From the NCBI RefSeq assembly GCF_037975245.1, contig NC_092570.1, positions 3,878,001 through 3,942,000 of the forward strand: 64,000 nt of DNA, written 5' to 3'. Source of the DNA: Apostichopus japonicus (lineage: Eukaryota; Echinodermata; Holothuroidea; Aspidochirotida; Stichopodidae). The number at the start of each line of letters is the position of its first letter. Position 1 is the stretch's first letter. The notes below the pieces were generated by a model. It was given only the letters and a program-made list of their open reading frames with translations, did no database searches and was not told the origin of the DNA. The translations under genes and the position numbers were made by a program. Shown here piece by piece: positions 5,939-55,802 of this stretch.

Positions 5939-6229
5939 GTCGGCTCATCTGATGAATAAGCCTCTTAGCCAATCGCTAGTCGTGTTGAACAGTAACGTCT
6001 CTTTCGCATAACCGCTCTATACCGCAGTATAGACATAACGTTATAACAGCCGACACAGAGATAAAACATAATATATTAGTGAATGGATGTTTAGTTCTCT
6101 TTCGAGGCGATTTGAGGATTTTATTATTATTATTTCCAAGCACTATTCAAATTACCGTTGTGGATATTTATTATATATCATTCAGTCTGTTGATTGACCA
6201 ACCAAATTTGGCTAAATTTTTTCTTCCAG

Positions 6230-6668
6230 AACGGAAGCACGAAACCTGTCATGGATGACGACCCGACCGATGACGTTATAGACACCGAAAATCGGGGAAA
6301 CGACATCGAGAAAGACATCGTACCGGGAAGCCAATCGATTATGAACCTTGTCACTAATTTCACGCCATTTTATCCGGAACGATTATGGCTGAGCCAGGAA
6401 GTCTTTTGTGAATATTTTCCTTACCACATAGTCTTTGATTCTTATTTAAGACCTTTACAAACAGGGCTTCATATACAGCGACTGTTACCAACGTTACAGA
6501 GTACGGAAGCCGATACCCTTGATTCTTTCTTTAAAATAATCCATCCACAAATTGATTGGAAATTGTCCAGTATGAGAAAATTTATCAATATGCAGTTTGT
6601 TCTGGAGACCAAGAGATCTGTGATTACGCAAGGTTGGGGAAAAGATAGACCGATGTTGCAACTTCGAG
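6230..6668 (+). CDS. GUCY1B2: GUCY1B2-like exon: linker and HNOBA domain, first part
   Basis: Acceptor TTCTTCCAG, then an acidic linker ([14 protein letters not shown]), then the HNOBA (H-NOX-associated PAS-like) domain starting at [20 protein letters not shown] and continuing through IIHPQIDW and [11 protein letters not shown]. The donor is CGAG/GTAAGC, phase 1. HNOBA carries the dimer contacts of soluble cyclases. FCxxFPxHIVFD is the conserved start of this domain. An upstream ATG at 6194 lies before the acceptor and is not taken as the start, because family members have about 200 more residues upstream. Confidence 0.93.
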
Positions 6669-9299
6669 GTAAGCAACAAATTTAGATACATCGCTTTAAG
6701 AATTCACGTATGGTCGTGCAGGTATCTTGTATGAAGGAGGTTTGACTAAGGTTACAATATATATCACTTTAACAGTTTAGGCAAGGGTCAATCTGATAAA
6801 GTTTGTTGCTGCTGCTCATAAGACGATTTAGAATTTGTTTGCTTATCTTATATGAAACGCTTTAAGATGTTACATTTCAAGGATTTATTTTACGTCCCCG
6901 TAAAATGTCCAAATTAACGATAGAGTAAATATTGCCACAAAAATATAAAATATTTCCGCACAAGTAGAAACATCATAAAATCAATCGCGAATGTTTGCTT
7001 ATAGAAAATTTGGTCTCTGAAATGTTGCCGAGGTGGTCATATTCATGGCAACAAGTTTCATCGCATAAACGTTTACGTTTAATAAGATTGCATATAATGT
7101 TCACATCTCTCACCGATAAAGGGCTTTCGCGAGGTAGGCCACCGTATAATGAGCTAATTATACGGTGGCCGTATAATTATACGGTGGCCTAGCGGTGGCC
7201 GCTAATTATACGGTGGCCTAAAAAATCATTGAGTGTATACTATTTCACAGCTTTATCAATATTTGATTTAAAATTGTGTCACAAAACATATAATTATTCA
7301 CAGAATTAGCTGTAAAAACTATTTTACTTCCCTTTAACCTTGTCATCAAGTTTAATTTCGAACTAATTTCCGCTTTCAAGACATTGAATTTTGATATTTT
7401 TTGTCAAATAAACTAGTAAATAAAAGTAATATGACAAAAGTTAAGTGTAAATCAATGTAAGAGACATCAAAGGTACCTGCATGGGAACGCAATAGCTTGA
7501 GTCTGAAATGTATTTGCGTCAAATCTAACAATGGTTAACTTAAATGAAACGAAAGTGTTAGCAAACTGCTTATACACTAGAGAGCCTGTGTAAGAGAATG
7601 TGTAAAACTAAGTTGGCCTGACGTTTCGATCCCAGCAGGATCTTCTTCAAAGGCTAAATGACAAGTGACAGTAACAGATGGGACAAATACACGCACAGAA
7701 TCCAGACAGGTTAATGAGCAGGGTTAACACAAAGAGAAAGATGTAAGAGGATTAGTAGGAAAGGGATGGAGAGAAGAAAGAAACCAACAGGGGAAGAGGA
7801 TAGGTAGGGGATAAACTAGGATCGAAATGTCAAGCCCACTTACTTTTACACAATGGTTAACTTAGTTGACTCGATGAAACATTAATTGATTGTTCAAGTT
7901 CATGAAGGTTTGTGATCACTTTATGGTTAGTTTGATGCAGCTTTTATTACCATGTTTTATTTTATTTTTTGTCTACATTATATGGTACAGCAGTCTTGGT
8001 TATTTACCACATTAGACGGAAAATAGTGAGAAAATTATGAGAAATAACTGGAATTATAATTAGAAACGATAGTCTCATTTTCAGAAAGTGCCTCTCTTTA
8101 CAAATAAGAGTTGTGCCTGTTTTGTTAGTAAATGATATATTTTGATTTCAATTTTGCTACTTAAAGGTGCCCTTTCTTATTTTACAAATGCCCTTTGTTG
8201 TAAAATGTAAAGTACCATGCTGTTGAAAAACATCATTGAATTACTGGAATTTGTTATACAGTGTGCAACACGGATTAATTTCTGTAGGACAGGTTTGAAG
8301 ATATTTTGTTGCTGGCATCCTCAAATCAAAATCCCATGTCCTACTGCCCTCACGATTTGCGCATCCAACACCCCGTCCCCCATCCCCACCCCTCCCCCAC
8401 CCCAACAGGGACAAGCCAGCCCACACCCACGATAAAATCTTCCACAGACACTCCTGGGCAAGAAAGGAAACATCATTTGCTTTACCACTTTTTAATTTTC
8501 ACATGACCTAAATTACCCATAGACCTATAGTATATTATTTACTTTTTTCTTTCACAAACACGTACAAGGAAAAAGCTAGCATAATAATTGGAAAGTAGGA
8601 CCAAAACCCTTAGCGTTGCTTTATGATCTAAACTGTCACAATATTCCCACTCTTCACTATGAGAGTAGTAGAATCGATGGCATATACTTGTTTTCCAGTC
8701 TAAAAACCATGTCAGCCAAAAACAACCCTAGTTTCCTTTTTTAATTGCAAATATTGATTTCACGTAAGTTATGCTTTGAGTGATAATCCGGACGTGGAAA
8801 CACATAGTTTCTTCATGCCACTCACACAAAATATAATTTTGAACCTTTACAAGGGCGTTGGAGTTTTTATCGTGATAATAAAAAAACGATCAACATTTTA
8901 TTAGTTGTTAGCGTCAAGCCGACGTTTATAGATTTTTAGCCTAATAAATTTACCTGGATTTTTCAATTCCATTAAAGCGTATATTGCATTATGCTAAAAA
9001 ATGCTTCACGCATACTGAGTCAAGAATCCTATGTGCTCCTAAACTATATAGGCCTATATATAAGTAGTCCATTTTCTGTTACGTTCATGTTTCATCAATA
9101 TCTACAAAATCTCTAGTGAGAACGTTTTAAAGAACTCTAGAGACGACCGTAAACTGCACCGATGAAGGCCGGAATATTAATTTCTGCGGAGAAGCTAGCT
9201 AGCTGTAGTAAATTCAAAAAGTATATGGATACCAACCTATGAGGCAAATACATCATATATAAGCTCTGTAAGATGAATATTGTTGTGATATTACATATG

Positions 9300-9331
<32 letters not shown>

Positions 9332-12300
9332 AGAGAATTTGCTATTAGTATTTATCTATTTGAATGGGTGAGTGGCTTTGTAAGCAACTTCAGCACAACA
9401 GCCTACAACCAAAAATATGCCACAGAACACAAGCAGATACGATCACAAGATATATCGTGTTTCACTAATTTATAGAAGCAAAATCTGACAAAGGTTTGGT
9501 AGATTAAAATGTTTTTTTTTCCTTTAAAATATGCCATATCCATTCAACCAAGGCCAAATTGAATTATTAACCCTAATGATACTCACAGGAAATATCGTGA
9601 TAGTTGCCATGGTGATGATGTAATTGAATATATACAGGGATTTTTTTGAAGACTATAATTTTGTATCTGGTCAAAATATGCGGATTTAATTAATTAACTT
9701 CCCACGTTTCGTCAATATTTAGCCTTGTTTTTTGGTTACTGATAACGTAACATATGGTTACGCGAATTGTGCGACGTCAGCCCACTGTTAACTTGACATA
9801 AGGACCTACCCCCACCCCCGCCTCTCTTCCCCCCTAAGGGACACCTGTGCATATGTTTAGAAGGTTAGGAACAATGCTAGCTAATTATAGTTCCACACTA
9901 TGCATCACTTCTAAATCCTTTTTAAAAAAAGGGTGGAAAACACCCAAGAGCAAGATGTCGAAAATTTGTATCAAGGAGCGCCGTTTTGGAAAATAACAAT
10001 CATTTGAAACCGTATGATCGATTTTTGTTTTTTGTCTTTGTCTTTGATTGTTACCTCAGGTCAAATGATTTGGATGGAGAATTTAAACGCCATGTTATAC
10101 GTGTGTTCACCCAGAGTAGCTAGCCTCAAGGAATTAGAAGATCGCTGCCTACATTTATCAGATATTCCCCAACATGACGTCACAAGGGACCTGATATTAT
10201 TCAACCACCAACGATTGGCTGAAATCGAGCTGGGTAAACAACTCGAACAAAAGAAAGAGGAGTTACGGAACGCTCTGAACGATCTAGAGGCGGAGAAACA
10301 GAAGACCGATATGTTACTTCATTCCATGTTACCGAGACAGGTCGCAGATCAGCTGAGGGAGGGAAAGAAGGTTGAAGCTGGTAGGTCACGTGGTCATTTA
10401 AGAAAAAAATCCATTTGACTGATGGTTTATATATTCATACCCAGCTATATATGTTTGAAATACATGTATTACATTATAACTTGATGACGTACAGTTTGTA
10501 GTTATTAATGACGATATAAGTAAGCTAGAAAACAAACTATCGGCAATTAAACTTTAAAACGCCTGTTACTACTGACGATAGTTGCTTCATGAATATGCAA
10601 CAATTTCTCGCTGATGTCATGAAGTTAGTAGCCTGCTGATGTAGTCGACGAATAGCAGACAAACCAATTATCATACATATTCATATATATCTTTGTATAT
10701 GTACATGTACATATATATATATATATATTTATTTATATATATTTATACATACATACATACACACACATACATATACATATATACATTGAAACATTTCCAG
10801 TTGTAGTACAGAAATGATGAACCCACTATGCTTCCGTGTTATACTATCCAATATTGTATACTATGGCAGCACATCATAATGAGAACACTGCAGTTTTGTA
10901 ATGCAGCTCCCGCGCAGAAAATACTGTTTTTGATATCGGCCTAGTTTATGTCCTGGGATATCCAAAATTATCGGTGCGTGATAATACCTCGAAAAATGGT
11001 TGCTATTATGTTCAGTGACGACGATCTTCATTGAACTCAGATTAATAATTCATTATTCAGTCTCGTGGTTGATTGAAATGAGATTTTGGGAGAAAAGTAG
11101 AGATATTTGAAACCCAGCTAAATTACCGTATCCAACCGTAATGTATTTTATTCAGAGAGATGGAGTTTAGAGTAATATACATATATTATTTATTAGTATG
11201 CTGTGTGCTGCTTTCAGGACTCTCTCTCTCTCAGAAATAAAAACGAGAGCCAGGAAAACCTAAAAACTATACCTTCTAATGTATAAGTTGAAAGCAAAGT
11301 CAAATGACCGAGTTCCAGTTAATATCTAACGGTATACAGGGGATGCCTCCTGAAACATATTCTATCTCGTATTTTACTGTGGTATGAGGTATTACAGCTA
11401 GGCAGCCTAGGCCTCTCATGTCCTTTTAAGATCTTACCACTATAGCAATCCACGTTCATTGTCCAAGTCTTGCAGATAACGTTTAAAGTTTTAGGAACTT
11501 TCTAAAGCTGCAATGTTTTGTATTTTCTGAATCACATAAGAAATATTAAGGATATTAACATACCACGAAAGGTGTAATCTAAGGCTGATACAAACCTACA
11601 AAGGGCCTGGCTGGCAATTTACAGCAATAAGAAGGCTTATGCTTTCAAGGTACATTTTAACAAAATGTTTAAAGTACCGAAGTTTACTTTCCTTAAGGTT
11701 CTCTTTATTCAAAGGATTTCTCGAGAAATCAAGAATTTGTAAATAAATTAATGTCTCGGTGAAGGAAAAATGTTGTGACACATGGCTTTACCATGATTTG
11801 TTGATGTTTGCGCATCAGTGAGCAATATGAAAGTTCCTAACCTGTTTCCAGAGGTATAACACCAGTAATATTACAACTACATGAGAGCGAATAAAAATAG
11901 AGTTCCTCTTGGTATGAGTACAATTTGCGAGTACAAGTCTCTTAGCGCGAATACGAGTACTCAATCTCTCAGTAGTAATAGTAGTATAGCTAGAGTATTA
12001 AAATGACTCGAGTACAAATATACGAGTTCAAATTCACAAGTCCGAGTCCTATGCGAGTACCATAACCAGTACGGACATAGTCCCATTAATTCTGGGTAAT
12101 AATGGCGATTTTCCATTTCTAAAGCAATCTTAGAGGGGGCACTTATTTGAATTACCATCATATTCTAAGGGTGGGTTGGGGAGGGGGAGGGGTGGGTGGG
12201 GTGGGATGAGATGAGGGGTCACAGTAGTGGCCTCATTAACCAGTCTCCCTTTCTCACACTTTACGACACTCTACGAGACCTTAATCTGTTAGTTCGGCAA

Positions 12301-17399: not shown

Positions 17400-20300
17400 A
17401 ATATGAATATTCTTATTTTCCAAGAACAAAACATTGTGCACAAATGTCGAGAAATGATAATGAAACTTGCCAGAAAAGTGAAGTAGAAATCAGGTCTCTC
17501 TATGAGTGCGAAATAAATTATCCAAACAAAAGAGAAAGACAAGAGAATAAGAAAGAAAGGTATTAAACTTACACATTTTTACTAAATTTCGGATAATATT
17601 TTAAGGCTACAGTTAAGACACTAGTATAGAACGCAATTATGGATTTACCATTAGCTAGAGTAAAAGAGGCACACATTCACATCTCTCTATTATTCATGAG
17701 ACTATAAGCAATTTCTCAATTCAAATTCAAAACAAATTTCTCCAGAAGGCTTTTGAGAGGCCCAATAATTTTCTTAAAATCAGGGGAATAACAATTAATA
17801 GTAAACGGGGAATTTTCCCTTTTTGCTATTGCAACAAAACAAAGAAGACCGCTTTACCATCTGTCCTGTATAAAATGTCGCTGCTATAATGTTAATGTGA
17901 CTGCTGTTGTGAGTTATCCTGACAGAAACGGCCGATAAAATATATTAGGTTGTGAAGAAAAACTCAATATTAAATGAAATAATAAATATGATTTTGTATA
18001 GCGTAATATCCAGGTGGAATGCTGATCAGAAGCGCTGTAGGAGCAAGGTTCACAGTATACATTTCCATGTTCATGATTTTGACATAAATTCAAATGCTTT
18101 ATTCCCTTTAGTGAAGTAATCACCATGAAACTAAGAAATCGGGTGATTGGGCAGGAGGGAAACGCATCAATCGAGTTCTTTAAGCACGCAGGCATGTTTG
18201 GGTTGTATTGAAACGCTTAACGTAGCAGCGTCGACTGAATAAGTTTGGACAGAAAACTATAAGATTTTCCCAGTTAAACGCATAAACTGTATGAACTTCA
18301 GCAAATCAATAGAATGACTTTGACATTTAATTATGTTCTTGTCTTCACACTTTCCAGGTCAACTTTTCTGTCGTAAAAAGGAACTTTCGCTGCAGTAATA
18401 GTCAAAAGAACATTCAAGTCGAGGGGACGGTTCACGTCCGGGCGCTTCAAAATGACTTTTTCTTTACAAAATATCATATATAAGAAAAGTCTGAAAATTG
18501 CATATATAGTTCATATACCCACAAAACAAATGAGTGACGTAGAAGTGGTTACTTTGGCTGTGGAATGCTTGTAAAGCTGAAACGGCTGCTTAAGAAGTAG
18601 GCTGGTTATAAGCCCGTTGCAGCAATCGAGGTAATGATCTGATATGTAATCAATAAACATTTGTCTCTTTTCTTGTTCCATTTTAGGTGAATTTACTATC
18701 GTAACAATTCTGTTTAGTGACATCGTCTCATTTACAAATATCTGTGCTGAATGTCGTCCGATAGATATCGTCAACATGCTAAACGCCCTCTATGTAAGAT
18801 TCGACAAGCTGACGTCAGTGCATGACGTATACAAGGTATGTACATGTGGAGAACATAAAAAATGATAAATAAATATGATTCATTCTTTGGAATGCTTATG
18901 AGAGCGTTCACCTTTTCGTATGTAACAATATCAAACATGCCAATATGCTAAACGCCCTCTATGTAAGATTTGACAAGCTGCCGTCAGTGCATGACGTATA
19001 CAAGGTATGTACATGTGGACAACATGAAAATGATAAATAATATATGATCGATTCTTTGGAATACCTTTAAGAGCGTTCACCTTTCGTATGTAACAAAGTC
19101 AATATGTTAAACGCCCACTATTTAGTATTTGACAAGCTGACGTCAGTCCATGACGTTAATAAGATATGTACATGTGAAAAACCTTTAAAAAATGATAAAT
19201 AAATGATGATTCATCCTTTGGACGCCCCTATGAGAGGTAAATCTTTCCTCTGTTACAATACCAAACATGTCAATATGCTAAACGCCCTCTACATAAGATT
19301 TGACAAGCTGACGTCAGTCCATAACGTACACAAGGTATGTACATATGTGCAACATGAAGTGATGAATAAAATATGATTCATTTTTTGCAATACCCTATTA
19401 GAGCTTCCCCTTTCTTATGTAACAATATCAAGCAAGTATGATTTTATAACGAATTTAACAGTGATTATGTTGTGATTTGTAGCGTAAAACTAACATATAG
19501 GCCTATATGTCGTTCAACTTTCATTATCTATTTGCTTTCAGGTGGAGACGATCGGTGATGCTTACATGGTGGTTGGGGGATTGCCGATACCTGTACCGTC
19601 CCACGCGGATAGAATAGCTAATATGGCCCTGGGAATGACCGTGGCCTGTCAGGAGGTCATGTCACCTGTCACCAGAGAACCTATCAAGGTACAGTACGTC
19701 GCGTCTGTTTTGTCGTAGGAACCTTCAGCTCGTACGTTGATAAAAAACCGAACATTTACAGTAAAACAGCAAAGTCTAGGACTAAACGGGATTTGAACAA
19801 GGCCCTGCTCTCTATAGCAACTGCAGACTTAAGTTTGTAGCCATGTCTTTGTCGGGATGCCAGTCGGAACCCCATAGTACCACAGTACAATGTAGCCATG
19901 GATCACACCCTTATTTCATTTGATATGAGACCCAAAATGTAAGAGAAGGAAATTTAAAAAAAAAAAAAAAAAAATCCGGCTTTGTATGTATGTACAAGTA
20001 AATGAACAACAGATAAATTACCGGTAAATTATAAACAACTGAATTGTATGATATTAAGAACAAAATACGGATCTATAAAATATGGATTGCGCCACTATCA
20101 TCTGACTAAAATCCGAATTACGAAGTAAGTTAATTAAGGAACTAATCAATGTATTGTTAGCGCATAGCCTATAGTAAAATCTCTTGGCATGTAGACAATT
20201 AATTATATTTTCTTTCTCCGCGCGGATTCGCCTCAGGTGTTTTCTTATTTTTTTAGTTGGCAAATGCATTAATGAATCCCATATATACATTAATTATTTA

Positions 20301-23300
20301 CAGTTGTTTGCGATTGTTGTTCACAGATCTGTAACGTATCTTGTATCAATCTCGCAGTTAGAGGCTCTCTGGCAAATTTGAAGGCGCTATGCTTAATCTT
20401 TATCCATGTATAAAGATTTCCCAACCACGCAAATATAACTTATGAGTTATATTATCCTGAAGAATGAATGTCCTTACATATCCAGTTATGGTATAATGAA
20501 AGTATCCATTTCTAGAGCATTTCAAATGTTACATACTGAAATTCAATTCAATTTTTCAATTCAATACACTCAAAAAAATGAAGTGTTGAAAAGTAATCGA
20601 TAAGTGTTATATCAAACACTTCAGCCTAGCTCGTACAGGGACAACACCCTCCTTGCTAATTTTACACTTTCCGAGTGTTAAAAATCTAACACCTCGCTGG
20701 TGTTGAATTTATCAACACTTGAAGGTGTCATTGTCACACCCAGTCCCCTAAATTTAGCTCTTCAAAGGTGTTTATTACTCAGTTGATGGGAGAGCTGTAG
20801 TAACACCACATGTCTGGCTATTCTGACACTTTTTGCGTGTTGAATATAGCCAGCACCTTACTGATGTTCAGTTGACAATTGCAGGTGAAATTGCAAACCC
20901 CAAATCCCATAAATATAACACTTACACTAAAAAACGTGATACACAGGTTAAGTAAAATTAAACTTAATTTTCATGTGAAATAAGAACACTTAAACATTTC
21001 AGTAAAAATTACTTAACTGTTGGTTTGTACAGTTTTACATGTTTATTATGTAACGCAAATGCAACACTGTTATGTAAAATTTTGCCAGAGAAGTTTACAT
21101 AGCACCCATTTAGTAAATATTTTATACAGGTTTTAGGTTAATTATTACCTAGTAATTAGGTAAACAATATATGGATGCATGTTTGAATTGCTCACAGCAG
21201 AGAGGTACATTTAAGAGAGAGTAAAAAGCAAAGACAACACAAACAATTCAGAATGTGCGATTTTCAGCAATTAAACACCCTACTACCTTCCTATTCCAGA
21301 GGTCCATATATTATATCCCATTAAATGTAAAATAAACAATTTAGGCTGTAAAAGTACTGTCTTGTGGAATGAAGTCAACTTAAAAGTGCCAACATTTTCA
21401 ATTGCTACAGTTCAGTTACTTGGTCTTTAATGTTTGCGCATGCCTTTTGGTATTCCAGATTAAACACAAAGAAACAATTCTTCCCAAAGTCAATTTCAAA
21501 TATGCAACAACTTTAGAGAAATTCTGATCCATGGGATGAGAAAACATGGAGTGCTGTGTATGATGACTGCTACACTACAGTGACTACGTATTTGTTGTTG
21601 GCAAATGCCTTTTGGTATTCCAGATTAAACACAAGAAACAACTCTTCCCAAAGTCAATTTGAAATAGGCAACAACTTTAGATATATATACTGATCCGTGG
21701 GATGAGAAAACGTAGAGTGCTGTCTCTGATGACTGCTACACTGCAGTTACTTTGTCTTTGTTGTTGGCTCGTGCCCTTGGTATTCCAAATTAAACACAAA
21801 GAAACAACTCTTCCCAAAGACAATTCCAAATAAGCAACAACTTTACATACATTCTGATCCTTGAGATGAGGAAACGTGGAGTGCTGTCTATGACAACTGC
21901 TAAACTGCAGTTACTTTGTCGTTTTTGTTGGCACGGTAAGCATAAAAATCTCGAATCTGGTTGCACTTCACACCACCAGGCAACTGGTAGACAACTTTTT
22001 GGAAAAATTCCCAGGCACCGAAACTTGCAATTTGGTATATTTCAGATTTAACGCGTAGAATCATTTGAAGCAACATCAATGGCTTCATAAATGTCCTCTG
22101 GGGTAGGGCATGTCTCTCGATGATCACAAATGACTGCTGAGGATGTATTTTGCTTCCTCCAAGAAGTAACACATATTGCTGAGGTCTTTCTGAAATATTT
22201 TGCAAATAGAATTCCAAGTTGATACTACCTAAGTAACAAAGAAAAGAAAAGAAAATTCCCATCATAATGAAGTTGTGTTAAAACATTCTTGGAGCATAAG
22301 CAATTATTTACATGTACCCCTCACAAAACATTGACATTCCTAAAGAAAATGCACACAATTTAATCAGTTGTGGTTGTCTTCTTCAAGCACGTTTGAAACT
22401 AGAAAGCCAGATGGCCTATAGTGATTCCTTGTCAAACAGGAACTTGCATTAAACTTTCATCAGACAAGTTGCCTATAGGCAACTTTTACAACCAATGCAC
22501 CATGTTAACAATGCTTCAAACAGTGCTCACTCCCATTGTATGCAATTGTGTAGATGGCTATGAACTATAACAGCTAGATCACTTCCATAATATCGCTAAA
22601 TTATAGTTGGGCCTAGGTCTTAAAGTATCACCGATCCACATCAGCTTCGGCCTACTTGCTACAACTTACAAGCTAAAATGGCAATTAGTGGTAATTATAT
22701 ATTGCATTACATGAATATATGTTTATCCCTTATTAAACATAGTACCAGCGTAACTATAGGCCCATGCCCGATGCTATTAAAAATGCATTGCCTTGAAATA
22801 GCTTAAGTATATATCCTACTAGTACTACTACTACTTTAAAAAGTGACTCGCAGGGTATACGAAGTTACGGTTAACGCCCAAAGGAATAGAATGCACTAGG
22901 TTACATAAAAGGCCTAGATCAAAGTCCTCCGCCCGTCCGTAGGCAATTCCGTTTAATTTTACTTGTATGTAGGTTACACAGATTCGTTGACAATTATCAG
23001 TTGACTATGACAAATAGCACCTAGCCTATTATATTAACTTATCGTATGACTTTAACGTTAGGTCTACGTAACGCAAGCGATTCGAATGCATTCGTCTTCC
23101 CAACTTAGTCGTGGGTCTCTAAGCATATCTCGTTCTTTTCACGTTCACTTACATAATATCATAACATACCTCCGAATTTTTCAATCAATTCTTCCAGGTC
23201 CCAGTCTCCTATAACGTCATTTTCCATGCCATTGTAGCTCGTTATCGCACACTGAGTACGTTACGTTATGTGGCTTGCATGTATATATGGCCGTGGTTAC

Positions 23301-26300
23301 TATAGTACATTTAGTAACGATAAATGTTGTCAGTGGTTTAAACACTTAACTTGCACTAAGAATCCAGCTGATGGGAGGTTTGACCAATCGGAATGCTCGA
23401 ACTGAAAGTACACTTTCTGCAGGTGTAAAAAATACACGCTACATGAATTATGTTACCCTACTCAGGGTCAGAGTAACCCTTCAGGTGTAGGGTGAACGGT
23501 TACACCTGGAAAGTGTTCAAATTCAACACTCCATTTTTTTGCGTGTATCAAGTCATATTTATTGTATCATAAGTGTACAAACAGTCAATAGAGGCGCCTG
23601 GTATACACAAATAACTTAGTACAAATGATGGACACTAGAAAAAAAACAAAGGTTGTTTCTCAATCTAGTGATCATATGCACAACATTAAATCGGAAGAAA
23701 AAGTCTATAAAAAAAATTAAGCCCAAAAAAAAAGAAATTCTTTAGAAAATAAAGAAATATAAAGAATACTGCTCAGCAAAGTGTCTATAACTAGGTAGGA
23801 TTTCATATTATTTTGGAATACCCGAGAGTACTAGCTGATCGAAGATATAAGGCGACATTATGCCAAATTTAATAGCAATAGTTGGTAATTAATAATTAAC
23901 CATGAATAGTTTTACGATGTGTTACTGAGAAGCTGCGGGCATTGTTGCGAGTTCTCTTACAGAGATACTCGGATTAATTTAGCGGATCGATAACACGAGA
24001 TAAACGAAGGAAGCAGATTATTACGATAACTGAAATACATTACGACTTAAGGAATATAAATGTAAGAAGATCATTCTATGTGTATCTTTGTCTTTTATTT
24101 AATGCATGTTTATATGTTGTTTGGTTTCTTTCGTCTCCAAAATATGTTGGAGAAAACTTTAATATCTGTTCAAATAAAAAATACACGTTCATTACCATGC
24201 AATCAAACCACTTCAGGAACTATTCAATGGATGGTTGCGTTTAAGAGATATATGAAGAAACGCAGTATGACTACAATATAACGGCGGTCAATTTCTGCAA
24301 GAGGATCTAAAACAGAATATAAAAGATGGCGCTATTCATATATGTCAACATAGTAAGATTACCACAAGCCCGAAATGTTGTGTTCCACCCCATCACATAT
24401 TGTTATGGAATAATCATTAACATATTAGTCAGAAATACCAATTGAAAGGAAATTTGAGAATGATGTAACTTTCTTGAAATTCGATCCTGCTTGGTCGACT
24501 TTTGTCCTTGATTAATGTTAATATACTCTATATTTCCTTTTATTAATAAAAAGGTTCGTTTCGGAATTTCGTTCTTAATCATGCATTGAAACTCGAGTCA
24601 GAAGCCTTTCAAAGTGTAAATGCGATCACGAGATACAGAAACCTTCTTAACTCAGTAACATTACACAGTGTTTGTGTCCCATACAAAGACCTTAACGTAT
24701 GGGACAAATAATTAACAGCATATCATGAGAAAGATACTTTAGCTAAACAAAACAAATTTATATTCCAATTTTTTAGATTCGTGTTGGGATACATTCAGGG
24801 CCAGTGGTAGCCGGTGTTGTTGGGAGGAAGATGCCGAGGTATTGTCTCTTTGGTGACACAGTTAATACTGCTTCCAGAATGGAGAGTCATGGACTACCGG
24901 GCAAAATACACATCAGTTCTGCTTCATGTCAGTAAGTATACCAGTTTTTTTTTCTTTACTGTTTTATTCATAAACAACAGAATTGACACGTTGGTAGTAT
25001 GAATGTGTGTATTTATGTATGTATTTTAGATCCTCCTGCAAGCAGGAACTCGCGACAAGCCTCATTGGCTTATCAAAGCCGCAAGCTGACCGAAGTCTGT
25101 CTCTTAGGATTCATATTTAACGTCCACAGGCATATTATGAATTGTCAATTTTCAACAAGTCTGTAACTTAACGACATACATTAATCTTGGAATGACTCGA
25201 ATTTGGAACCTTGTGATTGGAAGGCACCGGCTTTAACCACTGAGCTAAAACTCCTTCTACAGTTATTATACCAAAAGATATAAATAATTATTTGCCAAAT
25301 CTGCGGAGATGCTAAGAAAATGTCAAGTTTGTGATTTTGACTGTGACGTCACCAAATTTTATGGATCCAATTGCATACCACAATTGTTAGATTTTTTAAT
25401 TTTTTTTTTACATTTGTAGGTCGAAAGCACATCCTCATAGCATTTTGTGTTATGTTTTTTTTTTGTAAATTTGGAGATATTTTGTAAATATCTTTGACAA
25501 CAGCAGAGTGAATGATGGCAATAAATTTGCTTTTTCCCTTTTTAATTTCTTTATCATTTTCCAATGAATTTTTCGCAGAGGAAATTAATATTTTTTGAGA
25601 GAGTTTAGATGAAGAATTTTAGCTATAGACTGAGAACATTGAGAGCTAAACAAACATTCCAAATTTATCAGATTTTAAGGGAAAACCCAACAAGAAGATG
25701 CTAACAGAATATTTGTCATAAAGTTTTTCAATCTTTAATTTTTTTTAAAGAATATCATGAGTAGTGTACTATCTATTAACAAAACAAAAATTCAATTTTG
25801 TAGATGCTTGATAGAAGAAAACTTTGAAATCTCTGAAAGAGGTGAAATTCTGGTGAAAGGAAAGGGTACAATGAAGACATATTTCGTGAATGAGAACAAA
25901 AATGCGTCGATGGAGGAGATTATGGGAAAGAAGAGAAAGGCATCAACACCAGAGAAGAAGGACTCCGTCAAACTGGAAACAGATTCATTGATTAAATTCG
26001 GAACTGGTAAAGAATAGTCATTTTTATACCGATATGAATATATATATATTATGTCTAATAGAATATTATGTAACAGAAACGTTTGAAATAGTTTAGCCGA
26101 TGACTAATTTTATGTCTTTATATGGGATGCAATTTAAAAATGATATTAGCTCATTTAAATCTCTTAGAGGAACCCTGGTGAATTTTCACAGATTCACGGC
26201 GTCCTTGGGAAGTTTTATTCGTCAGATTCCTACACAAGTATATAAAGAACAACTTATAAAACTATAGTTTAAACACGATCTATAATTAAAGATATCTAGA

Positions 26301-30356: not shown

Positions 30357-30935
30357 TGAAAAATCATGTTTTTCCCTTATCTTTCTCTCTCTCTCTATCT
30401 ATCTACCTTGACAACATGATTAATCTCGTGACCGGGCCAATGAAGTAAATGGTGGGGATGTTTTTAATTTGAGTGGGAAAGTAACTTTGAAGGATTTATT
30501 GCATAAATATACCCAAAAGTCTTCCCATTTATGGTAAAATTTAAATTCAAGTATAGTCAATTATTTACTTCTTAAAAGACGTAAAGTGAGAAACCTAGCG
30601 ACATGTTCAACTGTTAATGAGTTTTAAGGCCAATTATTAAGGGATAATACACGAATTTCGATTGCGTGGGATCAATCCGGCTGCAATGAGGGACTTATAA
30701 AGACACTAATCATGAAGTTTGTGATATGGCGGATCCAGGATTTAATAAGCGAGGGATATGACCCTGGGTCGTTTAAAACGACACCCACATATAGCGGTCG
30801 TGGGGGGGGGAGGGTGGTAGGGGCGGTTGGGTGAGCCACGCCAGATAAATGAAGTTATATGGTGCATTCTGCATATATATATATATGGTGCATACTGCAT
30901 GGTGCATGGTGCTAGAAGCATGGTGCAGGGTGCAA
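30357..30935. other. Cyclase 3' flank / 3' UTR
   Basis: Begins with a (CT)n/(CTAT)n tract (30384-30405). No canonical poly(A) signal is obvious; the first AATAAA seen downstream is near 31423. It ends in a stretch of GCATGGTG words (30860-30935). Confidence 0.5.
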
Positions 30936-31180
30936 GGAGTGTTAGCTCAGTGGTTAACGCCGGTGCCTTCCAATCATAAGCTCCCCGGTTCGAGTCACTC
31001 CAAGATTAATATATATGTCGTCCAGTTACAGAGTTGTTGACAATTGACAATTCATATTCACGGACGTTAAATATGAATCTAAGAGACTGACTTCGGTCAG
31101 CTCGCGGCTTTGATAAGCCAATGATGGCTTCTTCGCGAGTTCCTGCTGGCAGGAGGATCTAAAATACATACATAAATACA
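30936..31180 (+). repeat. tRNA-derived SINE-like element (type B)
   Basis: GGAGTGTTAGCTCAGTGGTT (A box TAGCTCAGTGG) and CCCCGGTTCGAGTCACTCC (B box GGTTCGAGTC) form a tRNA-like head with pairing ends GGAGTG/CACTCC. A body of about 170 bp follows, with the tail AGGAGGATCTAAAATACATA and ACATAAATACA. Near-identical to the copy at 53135. Confidence 0.9.
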
Positions 31181-33413: not shown

Positions 33414-33626
33414 ATATATATATATATATAGCCCGGGCATCCCGCTTTATATGCGGACACCCCAACCACTAGGCTATGGACGCTGATTGTGTGTCCAGAG
33501 GTTCGAAACCGGTAAGGAAGGTCGTTATTCCATTGTAGGCGTTTGACACCTGTATCGAACAATAGTAGTTCTGTTTTGAAGACATATTTGCCTTACTCTA
33601 AAGATCAAACATGATGTTAACCAACT
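33414..33626 (-). repeat. tRNA-Asp-like SINE (type A) with (TA)n
   Basis: (TA)n at 33414-33430 is followed, on the minus strand, by the tRNA-like head (TAGCCTAGTGGTTGGGGTGT A-box region, reverse of ACACCCCAACCACTAGGCTA) and the body containing GGTTCGAAACCGGTAAGG on the + strand, ending near AACCAACTCGATCAG. Matches the copies at 38630, 50208 and 55587. Confidence 0.8.
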
Positions 33627-34880
33627 CGATCAGTCGAGATACAGGTCGGGGCAAAATGCTATGTTTTAATAACAAACAGAGCCTCTTCAGGGTGTAATAC
33701 GTAAAAATGTTGACCTCATTATTCTTTAATTGACTAGTAGACTTAACAATCGGGACTGACAATGGTAGGGGAGGGGGTGAGGAAATAGCCCCCATGAACG
33801 GTGTCAAATAAAGGGGCCCTACAGAATATGAAGAGGTGACCCGTTAAAGTATGAGACAAAGAATCGTGTCATCTCATTCTGATAATATACTTGAGGGAAA
33901 ATTAAGAGTGCAAAGAGGGGTCACCGGTGAGGTTATGTATATCATTTGACCCGACCTGGTTTCACAACGTTTACGTCATCATGTAACGTCTACGATGACA
34001 TTGTAAAATTCAACACTTAAATATTATGTAGAACCCGTCGAATGCATATATTGTTTCTAAAGGTTATTATCTAACTTGATCACATTTTGTAGATATACAT
34101 TATATAAATACTAATTTTACATAAATGATTTGCAAGTGAACAAATTCAATTCGTATTTTGTTATCAATTGTTTGTTTTTCTATTTTCACCATTTCTTCCA
34201 CTTTTCCCTATTCAATCAATACAATCGCGTTTCATGGAAAGTGCAACTGGTCAAGAACCTTCTGTTGCTAGTAATAAATTAGTTGGTTGCTATGGGCTAC
34301 TTGGTGTGTAGCGTGCTCAGATTCAATTATGCGTTAAGAGATACGCGTTATATTTTCGATTAGTTTGCAGCAGTTCATTATGTCTATACATATATATAGC
34401 ATACAACTATAATAGTTTGCGTTCTGTTCAATAAAGTAAGCAGATTGAACAGTTTCTCGTTCTGCTGTATACAACTCTGCTTAACAATAACATGCTTATT
34501 TAATTTCCCTGTTTTATTCTGCCCGCAACAATAGATCTAGCTTTATTGGGACTTATAAATATAAATTGCTTTCATTTGCTGTTTAAACTTGACGATTAAT
34601 CTCGGCATGATATATATAGTTTAATAAGGAATGTTTACATGATCGTAGTTTGATTGTTTCTTTGTTAGATTAGGTAATCAAGCTAATTATTGAATTGATC
34701 AACCTCAGATATTGTGAAGAGTCATTGCTCCAAATGTGGGAGTGGCAACGAAGCAAAAAACAAACAAGAACAAAATCATATCACTATATACATTAATATT
34801 AAATATTTACACATCGAGGCCAAACAATACACTACGTATATTACAGCTGCATATACAGAAGCAACAGTTCCATGATATAA

Positions 34881-38462: not shown

Positions 38463-38813
<351 letters not shown>

Positions 38814-38826
38814 CATATATATATAT

Positions 38827-44291: not shown

Positions 44292-47200
44292 GTACGTTAG
44301 TTCACTTGTATGCTTTTTTTTTCATAATGAGTCGCTATCATTAACCTTTTCAATAAAAAACATAAAAACCTAAAGAGACTAATATTCGTTTTAATATCGC
44401 TAAATCTTGAGCAGCATAATCCTGTACGTTCAGCTTTGAGATTGTTTACAGCTTATTGACACCCTCTTGGTAGAATTTCGCCTATGTCGAGAGGGAGAAT
44501 CAGAGGGATGCATCCCCTGTTTTATGCCGAAAGAAAATATGGAGGACCTGGGAAAAATATGATAAAGAATATTGTATTTTGATTTTCCCAGTAGCCAATG
44601 CTTTTAGGAAAAGGAGAGTATAAAAGTGGGAGGTAAAGGAAGGTGTGGGGTGGGGAAAGGGGGATAGCGGAGACAAAGCTGCCTCCGGCTCTCGACTTGA
44701 CTCTGTAGACCTTAGCTTATTTTGATAATTAGAGTCAAGATTACCATATGAAATTTTTCAAAAAGGAATTTCAGTAAACGCTAGAGATCAAATTATCATT
44801 TAAATATATCGTTACTACAATCAACGTGTTCCGCCATCTTGTTTTTCTGACTAGAAGATTTTGAAGAAGACAAGAACCACAATTGTTACCGTAAATGTTC
44901 CTGGCCTGCTGAACCATTAACTTGCAATTACAAATTCGAGTTAGAATGCCTTACTGCGATGTCAGAAGCCTGTTATGACTGTCCGTATAATAAGGAGGAT
45001 TGCCTTAGGAAAGGTTGCATCCCTCTCAGTGGAGTACAAAAATCAATTTTTGCAGTGAACGGAAGAATGCCTGGACCAGCTATTCATGTGAGAGTGTAAT
45101 CTACAATTACTAAATTAATATACCAATTAGAAAAGACTATACTAATTTCATATTGTTTATAATAGTATATTATCTAAACAACCTTCGTACATATTTCGAT
45201 AATGCCTTCGGTCTGTACCTACATGCAGTATGTTCTTCTTCTTCTTGTTATTATTATTATTTTTTTTTATCTATTTTAATATGTGTTCGTATTTTTAATA
45301 TGTGTTGTCTCAGATCCTGCCAGGATCGATACGTCGGGAACCTTATTACGCTTATTTATATACCCACACAAGCATTTGCCAGTAAATAAACATTTCTTCT
45401 CTTTGTGTGAGTGTCCATGGCACTAAGATATAATGAAACATATATTAGATTTAAGTTTGTCAAGGTTGTATATCAATGCTTGATTTACAGGTTTATATTA
45501 ATAATAATAATAATAACCATATTAAACTAATTAAGATACAGCAAAGAATCAAAAAATTACAAGGACAGTTCACAGGTTAATTGAGTTTGGTTATAAAAGA
45601 CCTTTTCAACGTAATTTTCTTGTCACAATTTGTTTCACAAAGGGAACTTGAAGCAAGCACATTTGATGTCTTATTGGTACATTGACAAACCTATGTGTTC
45701 ATTCTCATTATGATTCACTCTTTCAATCTTTTTTTCATCTTCCATTGCGTCGTATACCTTTCCATGTTGGAACTGAATGAATTTGTTACCACAATGGTAA
45801 ATCATATTCCAGTTTGTCAGCAAAACTTACCTCCGAATTATACTTGATGATGTGGAATCGATATAATGTAAACCACAAAGTGTTTGCTCGTTTGCTAAAA
45901 GCCTGTATAGCATAAATTAATATCAATGTGAACTATTTCACCTGAAACTCCTCCTCCCCTCGTAGGTTTGCGAAGGAGATACAATTAACGTCACGGTTAC
46001 AAATAAATTGGGTTTTGGAGAAGGCACTAGTATACACTGGCACGGTATACACCAACGTTCTTCACCTCAAATGGATGGAGCGACATTCATTACGCAATAC
46101 CCAATCGAGCACGGAACTACTTGTACGTACACATTCCAAGCAGATCCAACTGGGACCCATTACTGGCATTCGCACCACCGACTGCAACGTGTAGATGGCC
46201 TATACGGTTCTCTGGTCGTGCGACAGTCGAAAGAGGTGTAGTGTATCTTGCAAAAAATAGTTCGTAAAGAGATTTGCTGGTGAATTCTTATACTGTTTAG
46301 CTTGATATATGCAGGGGGATAGGAAGCTTCCAAAAAGTGGGAGGGGGGAACAACATCAGAGGGGCACCTTCTCATTCCACAACCACCATTCGTTATGCTC
46401 TAAACCGATACAAATCGGCCATATCACTGAAATATATATGATGTGTTAGTATGCTATCAATACTATTATGGTGCGCTGCAACATTGACTTTTTATTTATT
46501 AAGATTGCTTATTGTTAACTGTGCTACAAAAAGATATGGGATGCCATTTTAAAAATAGCATGTACAGATTAAAAATAAATAATTAAATAAAATATTAAAA
46601 TTAATAAAGGCTTAGATATCCAAAAGACAGTTCTTCATCAAAGGGGCACATTTTATTTGCCAGTAGGGCACATTTCTATTTTGTAAAAAAAGTAGGGGCA
46701 CGTGCCCCCAGTACCCCCACCCCCGGCTCCTACCCCCTGGACATATGCAATCATGATTGAAAGGTACAGTTGCTATAGCTTGTAGTGTAAAAAATAAGAA
46801 CACATCGTAACAGAAAAGAAATTCGACTTATAATAAGTGTATGCCGTAAACGCCCAAACGCTTGGTGACTTTATTGGTTTCGTTGGTAATGGTAATTTTC
46901 ATCACTCTGTTGCCAACGCACCGTCATTTCCTCCCAACGCCTTGTCAATCCCTCTGGGATCTAGAGGATATACAACTGCCCAGTTAAAATGGTTGATCAT
47001 TGCAACAAACTACTGTAACGTAACCCATTGCCAACGAAAGGTATAGTCGCACATAATAACAGCAGGATGTTATCGTGTGAAGATGGTTTTTGGAATGGAC
47101 TGTAGCAAATTGGAGCATAACACAACGGTGGAAACTGAGGAAAATTAGGGCAATAAATTTACCGTGACTTTGTTAACGACAGTTTGTACATGTCTCAATC

Positions 47201-50142
47201 GAAATCACAATGTTCAGTTTATTGGTGTCAACGTCTTATGGCGGATAATCAATGCAATACTTGTATAACACTGTCTAGAATTAACAACTTGCATGTAACT
47301 TGATAATGTGTAAAAGTCCCCAAACGACCTACAGCTAGCAAGAGAGTTGATCTAATTAAAACGAGCTAGACTTGAATTTTTTTATTATGTTATGTATATG
47401 TTTTATAAAAAATAATATCAATCTCAGACTAACGTCATGATTTGTTCGCATTACTGTTACCATTCTCATTTTTTGCTTTTATATTCCTCACTTATCTTGA
47501 TGTGAAAAAAAATCATTTTTACCTTCCTCATTGTCTTTAGAGAGATGTTCACGGAGATGAATACGACACCGACTTATTGGAACACACCATCATTGTGTCC
47601 GATTGGTTTCATGCTAACGTTGACCAGCAGTATGAAGATGATATGCGCGAGCCTGACGCAATCCTAATTAATGGCAAAGGTAAAAGTGAACTCAGCAGTG
47701 AAAGATTCACTGACGCCTCCTCCTCCAATGTCAAAAGCAGAACCACCACCGAGAGAGCAGTGTTCGATGTTTCTGAAGGTAAACGACACCGATTCCGTGT
47801 CGTTAGCAATGCTGCAAATGATTGTCCTATGAGAATTGCCATAGACTACCACAAGTTAAGAGTCATTGCGAGCGACGGACGGCCTTCTCGTGCCGACGAT
47901 TTTGATTCCATTACGATTAGTTCCGGTGAAAGATTTGATTTTGTTCTAAACGCTAGTCAAAGAGTCGATAACTACTGGATGCGAGTGGAAGGGTAAGCAA
48001 TGAAAACTATGAAAACTAACAGGGGCAATGCTCTATAGGTTAGCGTTTCACAAAATAGTAACAGTGTTACTTGGAAGTTAATACGAAAAATGGAATTCGC
48101 AATAACGCTGGAATTGTTGTGATGAGCTTGTTATTCTGGTTTAAGTGTGAACCTGTACTGTGGAACTCAATTTAAATCATCTTTTTTTACATTCAACTCA
48201 AATGTCTAAGATTTTGATAATTTCAATTAAAGTGGAACTGCGTGTCTCTATTCACTACGAGCCTTGTCAACTTCAATTCTAAACTCAAATGTTGACCACT
48301 TACAGGTTATATTTACCTGCTTGGTTGAGATCAGAGGCTGTTATTCCCTTTGGGAAAGTGAATATTGGTGCTTCGTGCCAGAAACAACAATATCTACATA
48401 AACTTACTGATACTTATAGTGGCATATTTTTATCCGTTACAGAACAAATGTGATACGATAGTTAATGTGGTATTGGTCATGTAGTACACTTAGATTAACC
48501 TTTATATTCCAATAGCTAGATTGCCGTTAAATTAACGTTGTTGATGTTTGAATATATCACAATAAAACGTCGTGGACTGTGTCGCAAATCAACAAGAGCA
48601 AAATGGCAAAGTATGAAAATCAATCAACAGGAAATTTGAAAAGATTATATATGTTCAAACTTGTTAACCATGTTTATATTTGCAGGCTGGCCGACTGTCG
48701 CCATCATCAGGAATTGGCCGTTGTGCGTTACAGAGGGGCCAAGGGTATTGATCCTATCGAGTCTTATGATACGAAGAACGATATCAAAGGAACAGAAGTT
48801 AACTCATTGAAACAGATGAATAGTCAATTTGACATCATCCGACTAAGATCTTTAGGTGACTAGCATCATAATTAAATGTTTCTCTTTCTGCCCGATACTC
48901 ATAATTACTCAGATATGTTCACTGAAAAGAGCGTATGACATTAATTTAGCTACTTGATCACTTAATACTTTAATTGCAAGATTTCAGGAGAAAGTTCTGG
49001 AGTGCAATCATGAAAGCATAAATGATCATATTGTTATTATTTGTTATTATTCATATATACAGGGTTACAACCATATAATAACGATAATATGCTATCATTC
49101 GCTAAATAACTATTCCTTTTGTAAACTTTCAGAACCGCTTCCCTTAGAGGACACATTGGAGCCAAATCGAACGTTTTACTTGAATTTGGGGTTCCATACG
49201 ATGGATACCACGACAACCAAACCAATGACACAGATAAACAGCGTCTCCTTTCGAGAGCCATCGATGCCTCTGCTTAGAAACCATTCCAGTATTAATGCAT
49301 CACAATTCTGCTATTATAAAGATGTGACTCAAGAGATGATCGATAAATGTTCCTCAGAATATTGTTCATGTATTCATGTTATAAAAACTAATATTAATGA
49401 GGTACGTTAAAGAAAGTCATTTTAATATGGGCTACGTCAGAGCTCAATGTTCGTTCAGTAAGGCTTGCATCAATAACATATTTGTTGAGTCTTCTCGGTT
49501 AGACCTATGTACTTTTACGTTTAGGCGAGATGTGTTGACTCTGACAAGGACACCAGAATATAGCCCTTATTCTTTTATGGTATAGAAAAAAATGGTTATG
49601 GAACTTTGCCGACTATTTGACACAAAGTAACAAAGCTGTACATTTGGTTGGTTTTTACAAAGTATAGTTATAGCTAGTTTTTATCAAGTGTGAGAAAAGT
49701 ATAAAAGGTGCTCATAACTGTGTCTCGTGCATATACTTCATATTTAAGATATACGTACTCAAAACTCAAGAAAACTGTCTGCATTATAAAAGAACCTGCG
49801 GTAAACTGGTCTATCAAATTTCGTTCCTATCGTTTCTTGAACCAGATTATAGAATTTGTGTTAATTAATGAAGAAGGCGGGATGACATCAAATCACGCAA
49901 TGCATCTCCACGGTTATTCATTTCGAGTTGTTGCCATGGGTAACCTGGATGACTTCATAGACAAGAATGTTCTCAGAAAAACGAATGAGGCCGGACAGTT
50001 ACGCAAGAATACCCGAACAGGTCCGTTAAAAGATACTACAGATGTTGCAGTTGGAAGGTACTCGATAGTACAAATCAAGACTGACAACCCAGGATGGTGG
50101 TTCTTCCATTGCCACTTTGCTTTTCATTTACAGGTAGGCTGC

Positions 50143-50181
<39 letters not shown>

Positions 50182-50576
50182 CATATACATATATATATAT
50201 ATATATATGATTGAAATTGTAGTGAGTTGGAAAATCCAGAAAAGAGAACAAATTTCAGGCCTCCACCGGGATGCGAACCAACTAGGCTATGGTCGCTGAT
50301 TGTATATCGAGAGGTTCGAAACCGGTAAGGAAGGTCGTAATTCCACTTAAGGCTTATGTATATACTGGTCAGGTAGAGGGGAAATCTTCCTTTTCTAGGA
50401 TGAATAAGAATGTCACTTTGATGTTGCCTATCAATTGTACGTTTTCACGAGAAGAAAATATATGCATAACGCAGCGGTCTCTTGAAAAGTACATTTTATC
50501 TGGTCCACAGGATGGCATGAGTCTTGTTCTGCAAGTTGGAAACGAAGAGCACCTTTCGGACATTCCTGACCGCTAA
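44231..50576 (+). CDS. Secreted laccase-like multicopper oxidase, complete (8 exons, 602 aa)
   Basis: Joined exons 44231-44291, 44855-45087, 45966-46235, 47541-47992, 48686-48855, 49133-49401, 49846-50133, 50511-50576; all GT/AG with agreeing phases. Three cupredoxin domains follow a signal peptide ([20 protein letters not shown]) and a Cys-rich N-terminal segment typical of animal laccases ([20 protein letters not shown]). Copper ligands: HWHG (122-125), HYWHSH (163-168), HAMHLH (502-507) and HCHFAFH (573-579). The T1 axial position is methionine (M584, in HLQDGM), usually associated with a lower redox potential. The enzyme family oxidises phenols, catechols or metal ions while reducing oxygen to water; the substrate here cannot be told. 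Length is normal for compact animal laccases. An ATTAAA poly(A)-type signal lies at 50672, about 95 bp past the stop. Confidence 0.92.
44855..45087 (+). CDS. Multicopper oxidase exon 2: Cys-rich segment, start of domain 1
   Basis: It encodes [20 protein letters not shown], then [20 protein letters not shown] and [11 protein letters not shown]. The (M/A)S-ACYDCP-x3-DC motif and VNG-x-x-PGP-x-I are diagnostic of animal laccase-type oxidases. The acceptor is a NAGNAG site (CTAGAAG): using AG at 44854 or 44857 keeps the frame and changes only one glutamate. Donor CAT/GTGAGA, phase 0. Confidence 0.93.
45088..45965 (+). other. Multicopper oxidase intron 2
   Basis: About 0.9 kb, AT-rich, with short CTT and TAA trinucleotide tracts (45234-45262, 45500-45515). 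Nothing else recognised. Confidence 0.7.
45966..46235 (+). CDS. Multicopper oxidase exon 3: domain 1 copper motifs
   Basis: 90 codons, phase 0 at both ends. [13 protein letters not shown], then [17 protein letters not shown] and [19 protein letters not shown], then SLVVRQ. HWHG and WHSH supply the first four trinuclear-cluster histidines. The usual animal pattern after WHSH is T/S-G-x-Q-x-x-D-G; here it is HRLQRVDG, a modest departure that keeps the Q and DG. Confidence 0.96.
46313..46741 (-). repeat. Interspersed repeat R1, inverted copy in multicopper oxidase intron 3
   Basis: Shares TAGGAAGCTTCCAAAAAGTG, GATGTGTTAGTATGCTATCA, AAAGATATGGGATGCCATTT and CCAAAAGACAGTTCTTCATC with the 32.3-kb copy in reverse. 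Ends with GGCTCCTACCCCCTGG. Confidence 0.85.
46840..47041 (+). other. Unassigned open frame inside intron 3
   Basis: Open for about 68 codons ([20 protein letters not shown] ... [10 protein letters not shown]) and followed by AAAG/GTATAG, a plausible donor. No acceptor with a good polypyrimidine tract precedes it. The peptide does not fit the oxidase alignment between exons 3 and 4, which join directly in phase. It may be chance, an old repeat or an unknown cassette. Confidence 0.3.
47541..47992 (+). CDS. Multicopper oxidase exon 4: domain 2
   Basis: Acceptor TTGTCTTTAG, phase 0 in, phase 2 out (GAAGG/GTAAGC). It encodes [32 protein letters not shown], then [20 protein letters not shown] and [12 protein letters not shown] ... 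YWMRVEG. DW-x-H, ILINGKG and R-FR-V/L-S/N are conserved second-domain landmarks of laccases. A serine/threonine-rich loop ([20 protein letters not shown]) is likely surface exposed. Confidence 0.95.
47993..48685 (+). other. Multicopper oxidase intron 4
   Basis: About 0.7 kb of AT-rich sequence; nothing recognised. Confidence 0.7.
48686..48855 (+). CDS. Multicopper oxidase exon 5: end of domain 2
   Basis: Acceptor ATATTTGCAG, phase 2 in, phase 1 out (TTTAG/GTGACT). It encodes [20 protein letters not shown], then an acidic linker to FDIIRLRSL. The position G-L-x-DC ... Q-x-AV-x-RY matches the end of the second cupredoxin domain in animal laccases. Confidence 0.92.
49133..49401 (+). CDS. Multicopper oxidase exon 6: linker and domain 3 entry
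   Basis: Acceptor AAACTTTCAG, phase 1 in, phase 0 out (GAG/GTACGT). It encodes [24 protein letters not shown] and [23 protein letters not shown]-x-x-P-x-x-PLL and the C-x3-C-x-C-x-HV segment are conserved just before the third domain. Confidence 0.94.
49846..50133 (+). CDS. Multicopper oxidase exon 7: domain 3 copper motifs
   Basis: 96 codons, phase 0 at both ends. [72 protein letters not shown] supplies T1, T2 and T3 ligands; HCH-x3-H supplies the T1 cysteine with its flanking histidines. The usual proline of HPxHLHG is replaced by alanine. A (TA)n array starts six bases past the donor. Confidence 0.96.
50138..50206. repeat. (TA)n microsatellite in the last multicopper oxidase intron
   Basis: TA tract with a few C and TTT interruptions, directly between the exon 7 donor and the tail of a SINE. 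Confidence 0.95.
50208..50352 (-). repeat. tRNA-Asp-like SINE (type A), internally deleted
   Basis: GATTGAAATTGTAGTGAGTT, TCCACCGGGATGCGAACC, then AACTAGGCTATGGTCGCTGA and GAGGTTCGAAACCGGTAAGG. It lacks about 30 bp of the tRNA-like anticodon region present in the 38632 and 55587 copies. It occupies the last multicopper oxidase intron. Confidence 0.85.
50511..50576 (+). CDS. Multicopper oxidase exon 8: C terminus with axial methionine
   Basis: Acceptor TCTGGTCCACAG, phase 0. It encodes [21 protein letters not shown] then [13 protein letters not shown] is the family's standard ending after HL(E/Q); the methionine is the T1 axial ligand position. The family often has a further proline/cysteine tail (P-x-NFPxC), absent here. 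Confidence 0.9.
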   Translation, partial: DGMSLVLQVGNEEHLSDIPDR

Positions 50577-53033: not shown

Positions 53034-53593
53034 TATGGCGGGCCATCAGTCTCAAATCATGGGAGATCGACTTATACCGATTTAAATCGACATATACCAG
53101 TTTAATTCGACATATCATCGATTTAAATTGACATGGAGTGTTAGCTCAGTGGTTAACGCCGGTGCCTTTCAATCATAAGGTCCCCGGTTCGAGTCACTCC
53201 CAGATTAATGTATGTCGTCCAGTTACAGAGTTGTTGACAATTAACAATTCATAATCATGGACGTTAAATATGAATGTAAGAAACTGAATTCGGTCAGCTT
53301 GCGGCTTTGGTAAGCCAATGAGGCTTCTTCGCGAGTTCCTGCTTGCAGGAGGATCTAATATACATACATATACATACATACATACCCGATTTATTTTACT
53401 TATCATCGATTTAAATTGGTATATGTAGATTTAAATCGATGGTATGTCGAATTAAACTGGTATATGTCGAATTAAATCGGTAGAAGTCAATTTCAGCTGC
53501 TGGAAACTGGTATAAGTCGAAGGAAACTGGTATATGTCGATTTAAATCGGTATTAGTCGATCTCCCATGATTTGAGACTGTTGGCCCGCCATA
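53034..53593. mobile_element. 560-bp foldback element interrupted by a SINE
   Basis: Ends TATGGCGGGCCATCAGTCTC and GAGACTGTTGGCCCGCCATA are inverse with one difference, and inversion continues through CAAATCATGGGAGATCGACT and repeated CGATTTAAATCG motifs. GTCCCT flanks both sides (53028-53033; 53594-53599), a candidate target duplication; a TA duplication reading is also possible. Interior palindromic 12-mers (CGATTTAAATCG) recur. A type B SINE sits in the loop. Confidence 0.88.
53135..53385 (+). repeat. tRNA-derived SINE-like element (type B), nested
   Basis: GGAGTGTTAGCTCAGTGGTT, GGTTCGAGTCACTCC, a shared body and the tail AGGAGGATCTAATATACATA with further CATA units. Same family as 30936-31180. 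Because the foldback arms resume on both sides, the SINE inserted after the foldback element. Confidence 0.9.
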
Positions 53594-55580: not shown

Positions 55581-55586
55581 ATATGA
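55385..55586. repeat. Duplicated unique stub plus (TA)n arrays
   Basis: TGTCCAGTTTTTTAAGTACT with CCGCGTTGTG occurs at about 55382 and again (one indel, one change) at about 55474, each followed by a (TA)n array of about 60-85 bp. A segmental duplication including the microsatellite is the simplest reading. Confidence 0.85.
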
Positions 55587-55802
55587 GTTGGTTAGCATCA
55601 TGTTTGATCGTTATAATAAGGCAAATATGTCACCAAACTAGAACTAGCATTGTTCGACACAGGTGACAAACGCCTACAGTGGAATTGCGACCTTCCTTAC
55701 CGGTTTCGAACCTCTGGACATACAATCAGCGTCCATAGCCTAGTGGTAAGGGTGTCCGCCTGTCAAGCGGGAGGCCCGTGTTCGGATCCCCGTAGAGGCT
55801 GG
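55587..55802 (+). repeat. tRNA-Asp-like SINE (type A), 5' part, split by a MITE
   Basis: Body from GTTGGTTAGCATCATGTTTG through TTCCTTACCGGTTTCGAACC, then the tRNA-like head GTCCATAGCCTAGTGGTAAG (A box TAGCCTAGTGG), anticodon-arm-like CCGCCTGTCAAGCGG with GTC (Asp) in the loop, and the B-box-like GTTCGGATCCC. Stems are too degenerate for a functional tRNA. It resumes after the MITE at 56197. Confidence 0.88.

Follow-up and report, generated by a model that had tools for sequence, protein, structure and literature searches.

The last part of a guanylate cyclase exon, together with the beginning of the following intron, forms an array of four head-to-tail units, from 18770 to about 19434 of the 64-kb window (the whole stretch of DNA that we analysed). 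We consider it very probable, judging from the sequence, that the array is a neutral tandem duplication across this exon–intron boundary, that it is decaying, and that the donor of the first unit (u1) is still the one used. Tandem Repeats Finder placed the array at 18770-19431, with a period of 169, 4.0 copies, 78% matches and a score of 790, and a repeat search of the window returned four copies at spacings of 169, 159 and 171. Every unit comprises the last 66 bp (22 codons) of the cyclase exon and 93–105 bp of intron. The initial annotation of this DNA had described the exon end and three further copies within 18772..19432, with 60 bp (20 codons) of exon and about 100 bp of intron in each copy; the existence of the array and the number of further copies stand, while the limits and both lengths are corrected by the figures given here.

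All four units lie on the plus strand. The first, u1 (18770-18938), consists of the 66 bp of real exon end and 103 bp of intron, and it is followed by u2 (18939-19097), in which a 66-bp exon copy with an intact donor at 19004/19005 precedes 93 bp of copied intron. In u3 (19098-19268) the 66-bp exon copy has lost its donor (ATATGT) and is joined to 105 bp of intron copy, and in u4 (19269-19434) a 66-bp exon copy again ends in an intact donor, at 19334/19335, before 100 bp of intron copy. Whole-unit identities, computed at two gap costs, are 92% for u1-u2, 87% for u1-u4 and 84–85% for u1-u3, and 86–87%, 79–81% and 77% for u2-u4, u2-u3 and u3-u4, respectively. The junction motif AAGGTATGTACATGTG, allowing up to three mismatches, occurs six times in the window, and four of these six occurrences are the array units. 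This count is above chance, as shuffled sequences gave a mean of 0.98 and a maximum of 5, and none of 100 shuffles reached six. A blastn search (E 0.01) found no unit copies outside the array in the window; dispersal of the units within the window was rejected on this basis, since all matches were confined to the array.

The joint between u3 and u4 reads ...ACAATACCAAACATG/TCAATATGCTAAAC... and that between u1 and u2 reads ...ACAATATCAAACATG/CCAATATGCTAAAC..., and the outer ends of the array are ...ATATCGTCAACATG and ...AATATCAAGCAAG. The outer ends have in common a TCAA, near the start of the unit and near its end, which would fit slippage or exchange at short homology. We infer that a segment of about 165 bp spanning the boundary was duplicated in tandem by replication slippage or unequal exchange, and that the array later reached four units. 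The start of the array in mid-exon, which had been singled out as unusual, would need no special cause, because the breakpoints of a duplication may fall anywhere.

The true cyclase exon (149 nt, 18687..18835, plus strand) begins after the acceptor TTTTAG, closes at 18835/18836 with the donor AAG/GTATGT and ends in phase 0. The next exon on the same strand (19542..19690) is preceded by the acceptor TTTCAG, and the array-bearing intron between them measures 706 nt, with 34% GC. Joined, the two exons match Pfam Guanylate_cyc with an E value of 7.3e-31, as part of the catalytic domain, and the three closest relatives of solved structure are all soluble guanylate cyclase alpha subunits (best E 7.5e-28). 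Upstream, matches to Pfam HNOBA lie within 6194-6682 and 10008-10415, so that HNOBA and Guanylate_cyc follow one another in the order of a soluble guanylate cyclase gene. A further Guanylate_cyc match, just over the cut-off, falls within 25739-26014, and another cyclase exon, judged by eye, starts near 24777. The label GUCY1B2-like agrees with residues that we take to be those of the beta-2 subunit; the Pfam matches are to Guanylate_cyc and HNOBA only. By eye, the exon preceding the array-bearing one seems to end at 10380 (G/GTAGGT), so the intron before 18687 would be about 8.3 kb long.

The following intron of the same gene holds a second local array (21403-21933, about 3.2 units, period 166). 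It gave no common blastn match (E 0.01) with the array at the cyclase exon, and we rejected kinship between the two, as their sequences are unrelated; that two independent arrays have periods of 166–169 bp, near nucleosome size, may be chance. Elsewhere in the window, a dispersed repeat at 30933-31124, 53132-53321 and 25134-25265 has a tRNA-like head, GTTAGCTCAGTGGTTAACGCC...GGTTCGAGTC, and is, by eye, probably a tRNA-derived SINE. A tRNA-Asp-like sequence (Rfam tRNA, 55728-55801) overlaps the margin of a family of dispersed repeats at 33434-33627, 38733-38821, 50276-50364 and 55585-55778; it may be a SINE as well, instead of a tRNA gene. Between 43109 and 43727 lies an 11-bp array of CAGTATAGTAC (56 copies), for which Tandem Repeats Finder reports 100% matches, and which is accordingly very young or homogenised. 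A multicopper oxidase gene has exons within 45966-50211 (Pfam Cu-oxidase_3, Cu-oxidase and Cu-oxidase_2).

The donor AAG/GTATGT is identical in u1, u2 and u4. The window has three occurrences of its 9-mer, AAGGTATGT, all of them on the plus strand (18833, 19002 and 19332) and all of them donors of these units, where about 0.8 would be expected over both strands; a tandem array at an exon end thus carries several donors that look intact. At the corresponding position u3 reads AAGATATGT. Two of the three copies had been reported to retain GTATGT and to offer spare donors, and both points are borne out, with u2 and u4 as candidate sites. Spliced to the acceptor before 19542, the u1, u2 and u4 donors define predicted exons of 149, 318 and 648 nt and leave introns of 706, 537 and 207 nt.

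At the real acceptors, pyrimidines make up 0.87 (before 18687) and 0.73 (before 19542) of a 15-base tract. Scanning 18836-19434 for an AG with a pyrimidine tract identified no strong acceptor at any copy start: 22 of the 24 AGs listed have shares of 0.40–0.67, and the only AG at a copy start (19097) has a tract of 0.60 and belongs to the copy whose donor is lost. The remaining two, a GAG at 19233 and a TAG at 19400, have a share of 0.73. Both are intron-derived, and neither lets any copy be read in its own open frame; the TAG falls past the last copy donor, and the GAG, upstream of u4, would give with the u4 donor a 100-nt exon with a shifted frame. A GAG is a poor acceptor. The statement that no copy has an acceptor is thus right for strong acceptors and has to be qualified for this weak candidate. 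Having no strong acceptor of their own, the copies do not form duplicated cassette exons, and the copied segment, as we read it, contains the gene's donor and lacks its acceptor, which does not correspond to intron gain by tandem duplication.

If the u1 donor were passed over, the first in-frame stop, a TGA at 18863..18865 on the plus strand, would be met after nine codons of read-through. All three copies remain open in the frame of the exon, as had been noted, but are shifted by one base relative to it in the read-through transcript. Given the stop and the shift together, splicing from a later donor cannot carry translation from the first exon into the open frame of any copy, and use of the u2 or u4 donor would truncate the protein.

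The persistence of these open frames and donors had been taken as a hint of function, which our simulations do not support. When the inferred 66-base common form was randomly changed by the observed 2, 9 and 5 substitutions, all three copies stayed open with a probability of about 0.60. The changes in the copies are 6 synonymous and 10 nonsynonymous, with a simulated neutral synonymous share of 0.25, and those in the true exon (u1) are 2 synonymous and 0 nonsynonymous. Neutral survival of the donor 9-mer has a probability of 0.70 for u2 and 0.55 for u4, so that retention of both copy donors is unsurprising.

Comparison of divergence in the exon- and intron-derived parts, which had been suggested as a check, gave an answer that depends on the alignment. 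When each pair was optimally aligned under the lightest of the gap costs, exon/intron divergences are.06/.06 (u1-u2),.17/.14 (u1-u3),.11/.12 (u1-u4),.17/.21 (u2-u3),.11/.12 (u2-u4) and.15/.22 (u3-u4), and none of 18 such tests (six pairs at three gap costs) identified a slower exon part, the lowest p being 0.061. MAFFT multiple alignments of u2-u4, in contrast, have 13 variable columns of 66 in the exon part versus 32–37 of 91–92 in the intron part, for which p is 0.009 under the default gap cost and rises to 0.049 when gaps cost less; with all four units and lighter gap costs p is 0.038. Among pairs read off the default MAFFT alignment, three of six have p <0.05, the lowest being 0.012 for u1-u2. 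In that alignment, however, a one-base gap belonging to a T run is set upstream, so that u1 is misaligned with u2. Because pairwise optimal alignment removes the signal, we rejected a slower exon part as a sign of function.

In sign, most exon-versus-intron comparisons nevertheless favour slower change in the exon part. The copies carry 10 private changes in 66 exon-part positions versus 19–26 in 87–91 intron-part positions (p = 0.055–0.41, in eight of the fifteen alignments made). The exon-derived part of the copies is free of indels, and the intron parts have several, many of them in A, T or ATAAAT runs. Weak constraint on the exon-derived copies may be read from these figures, but it is not robust. 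The intron part of u1 has 1–3 private changes versus 7–13 in u3 and 6–10 in u4, over fifteen alignments and on an unrooted tree, and the counts depend on the alignment; for chosen counts, this deficit has p = 0.003–0.092 against u3, 0.021–0.146 against u4 and 0.22–0.63 against u2. We take this as an alignment-dependent hint that the first 100 bases past the real donor (18836-18938) may be constrained and the copies not.

Which donor would be chosen can be considered in the light of splice-site competition in human genes, as described in PMC9225289. There, when a minigene offered two strong and identical 5′ splice sites, with flanking introns of 365 nt, only the upstream site was used. For sites of near-equal strength, PMC9225289 reports a preference for the upstream site when the introns on both sides are long, and for the downstream site when a long upstream intron is combined with a short downstream one; before matching for strength, the downstream site is the preferred one in about 60% of all events, and the border of intron definition lies at about 250 nt. 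If these rules transfer to a sea cucumber locus, exon definition predicts u1, the donor that ends the 149-nt exon behind the upstream intron of about 8.3 kb, and only u4 would have an intron short enough for intron definition, its 207 nt being below that border, so that competition from u4 is possible. Intron definition would give use of u4 and a truncated protein. The distance to the acceptor is 706, 537 and 207 nt for the three identical 9-mer donors, which all stand behind a copy of one coding sequence, and this makes the locus a natural counterpart of experiments that set identical 5′ splice sites against each other for a single acceptor. It is conceivable, though very unlikely, that u2 and u4 serve as a ladder of graded donors: a change between exon and intron definition would take splicing from u1 to u4, the output would switch from the full enzyme to a truncated or degraded one, and the number of units would set the ratio between individuals.

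Two of the copies could also be working decoy or poison donors, such that some transcripts use the u2 or u4 donor, meet the stop at 18863 and are degraded or truncated, tuning cyclase output. Retention of the true donor's 9-mer in both, the proximity of u4 to the acceptor, the nearby read-through stop and the lean of the MAFFT alignments would all suit such a role; however, retention of the two donors is expected under neutrality, that of u3 is gone, the evidence for constraint on the exon copies changes with the alignment, and exon definition, as described in PMC9225289, favours u1. We regard this role as unlikely. Tandem arrays are frequently misassembled, and the array or its copy number could be an artefact of the assembly, but its units differ from each other by about 8–23%, as repeats of a single unit by the assembler would not, making this explanation highly improbable. 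In telescripting, U1 snRNP shields intronic polyadenylation signals, and copies that bind U1 snRNP unspliced might likewise shield the AATAAA signals of this intron. AATAAA follows the exon copies of u1, u3 and u4, at 18868, 19198 and 19365, yet in a 706-nt intron of 34% GC such hexamers may be chance, and u3 has the hexamer without a donor while u2 has a donor without the hexamer; we consider this role extremely improbable.

Neutral duplication is supported by the one dead donor, the read-through stop, the chance-level open frames and the 6 synonymous versus 10 nonsynonymous changes, and the MAFFT signal in the exon part and its freedom from indels would count against it. Lying within the 706-nt intron, u2-u4 would decay as intron sequence and the gene would keep its first donor. 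If the copies are silent, as we expect, they are ordinary duplication debris in an intron.

Several known systems resemble parts of this arrangement. A recursive splice site, or ratchet point, is an acceptor fused to a donor. The array resembles such sites in having exon-end AAG/GTATGT motifs inside an intron, and recursive splicing had been proposed for it, but the tract before the motif is pyrimidine-poor (47% in u2 and 53% in u4, versus 87% and 73% at the real acceptors) and the intron is only 706 nt long, so the copies do not have that form. The literature matches listed contained no description of this locus and no case closer to the array than those considered here. Judged by title, the nearest known case appears to be the IFI6 minisatellite, in which a tandem repeat likewise gives one transcript several donors; there, however, the repeat is reportedly short and its donors are used, whereas our unit measures about 165 bp, 66 bp of it coding exon, and its donors are predicted. 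In PMC4974935, a potato RdRp gene gained an intron via tandem duplication across an intron–exon boundary, as confirmed by 106 RNA-seq reads. As in our array, the duplicated segment spans one exon–intron border; in potato the acceptor side was copied, creating a new intron, whereas here the donor side was copied three times, with no acceptor. The array would thus be a further case of a known kind, a duplicated exon edge with spare donors.
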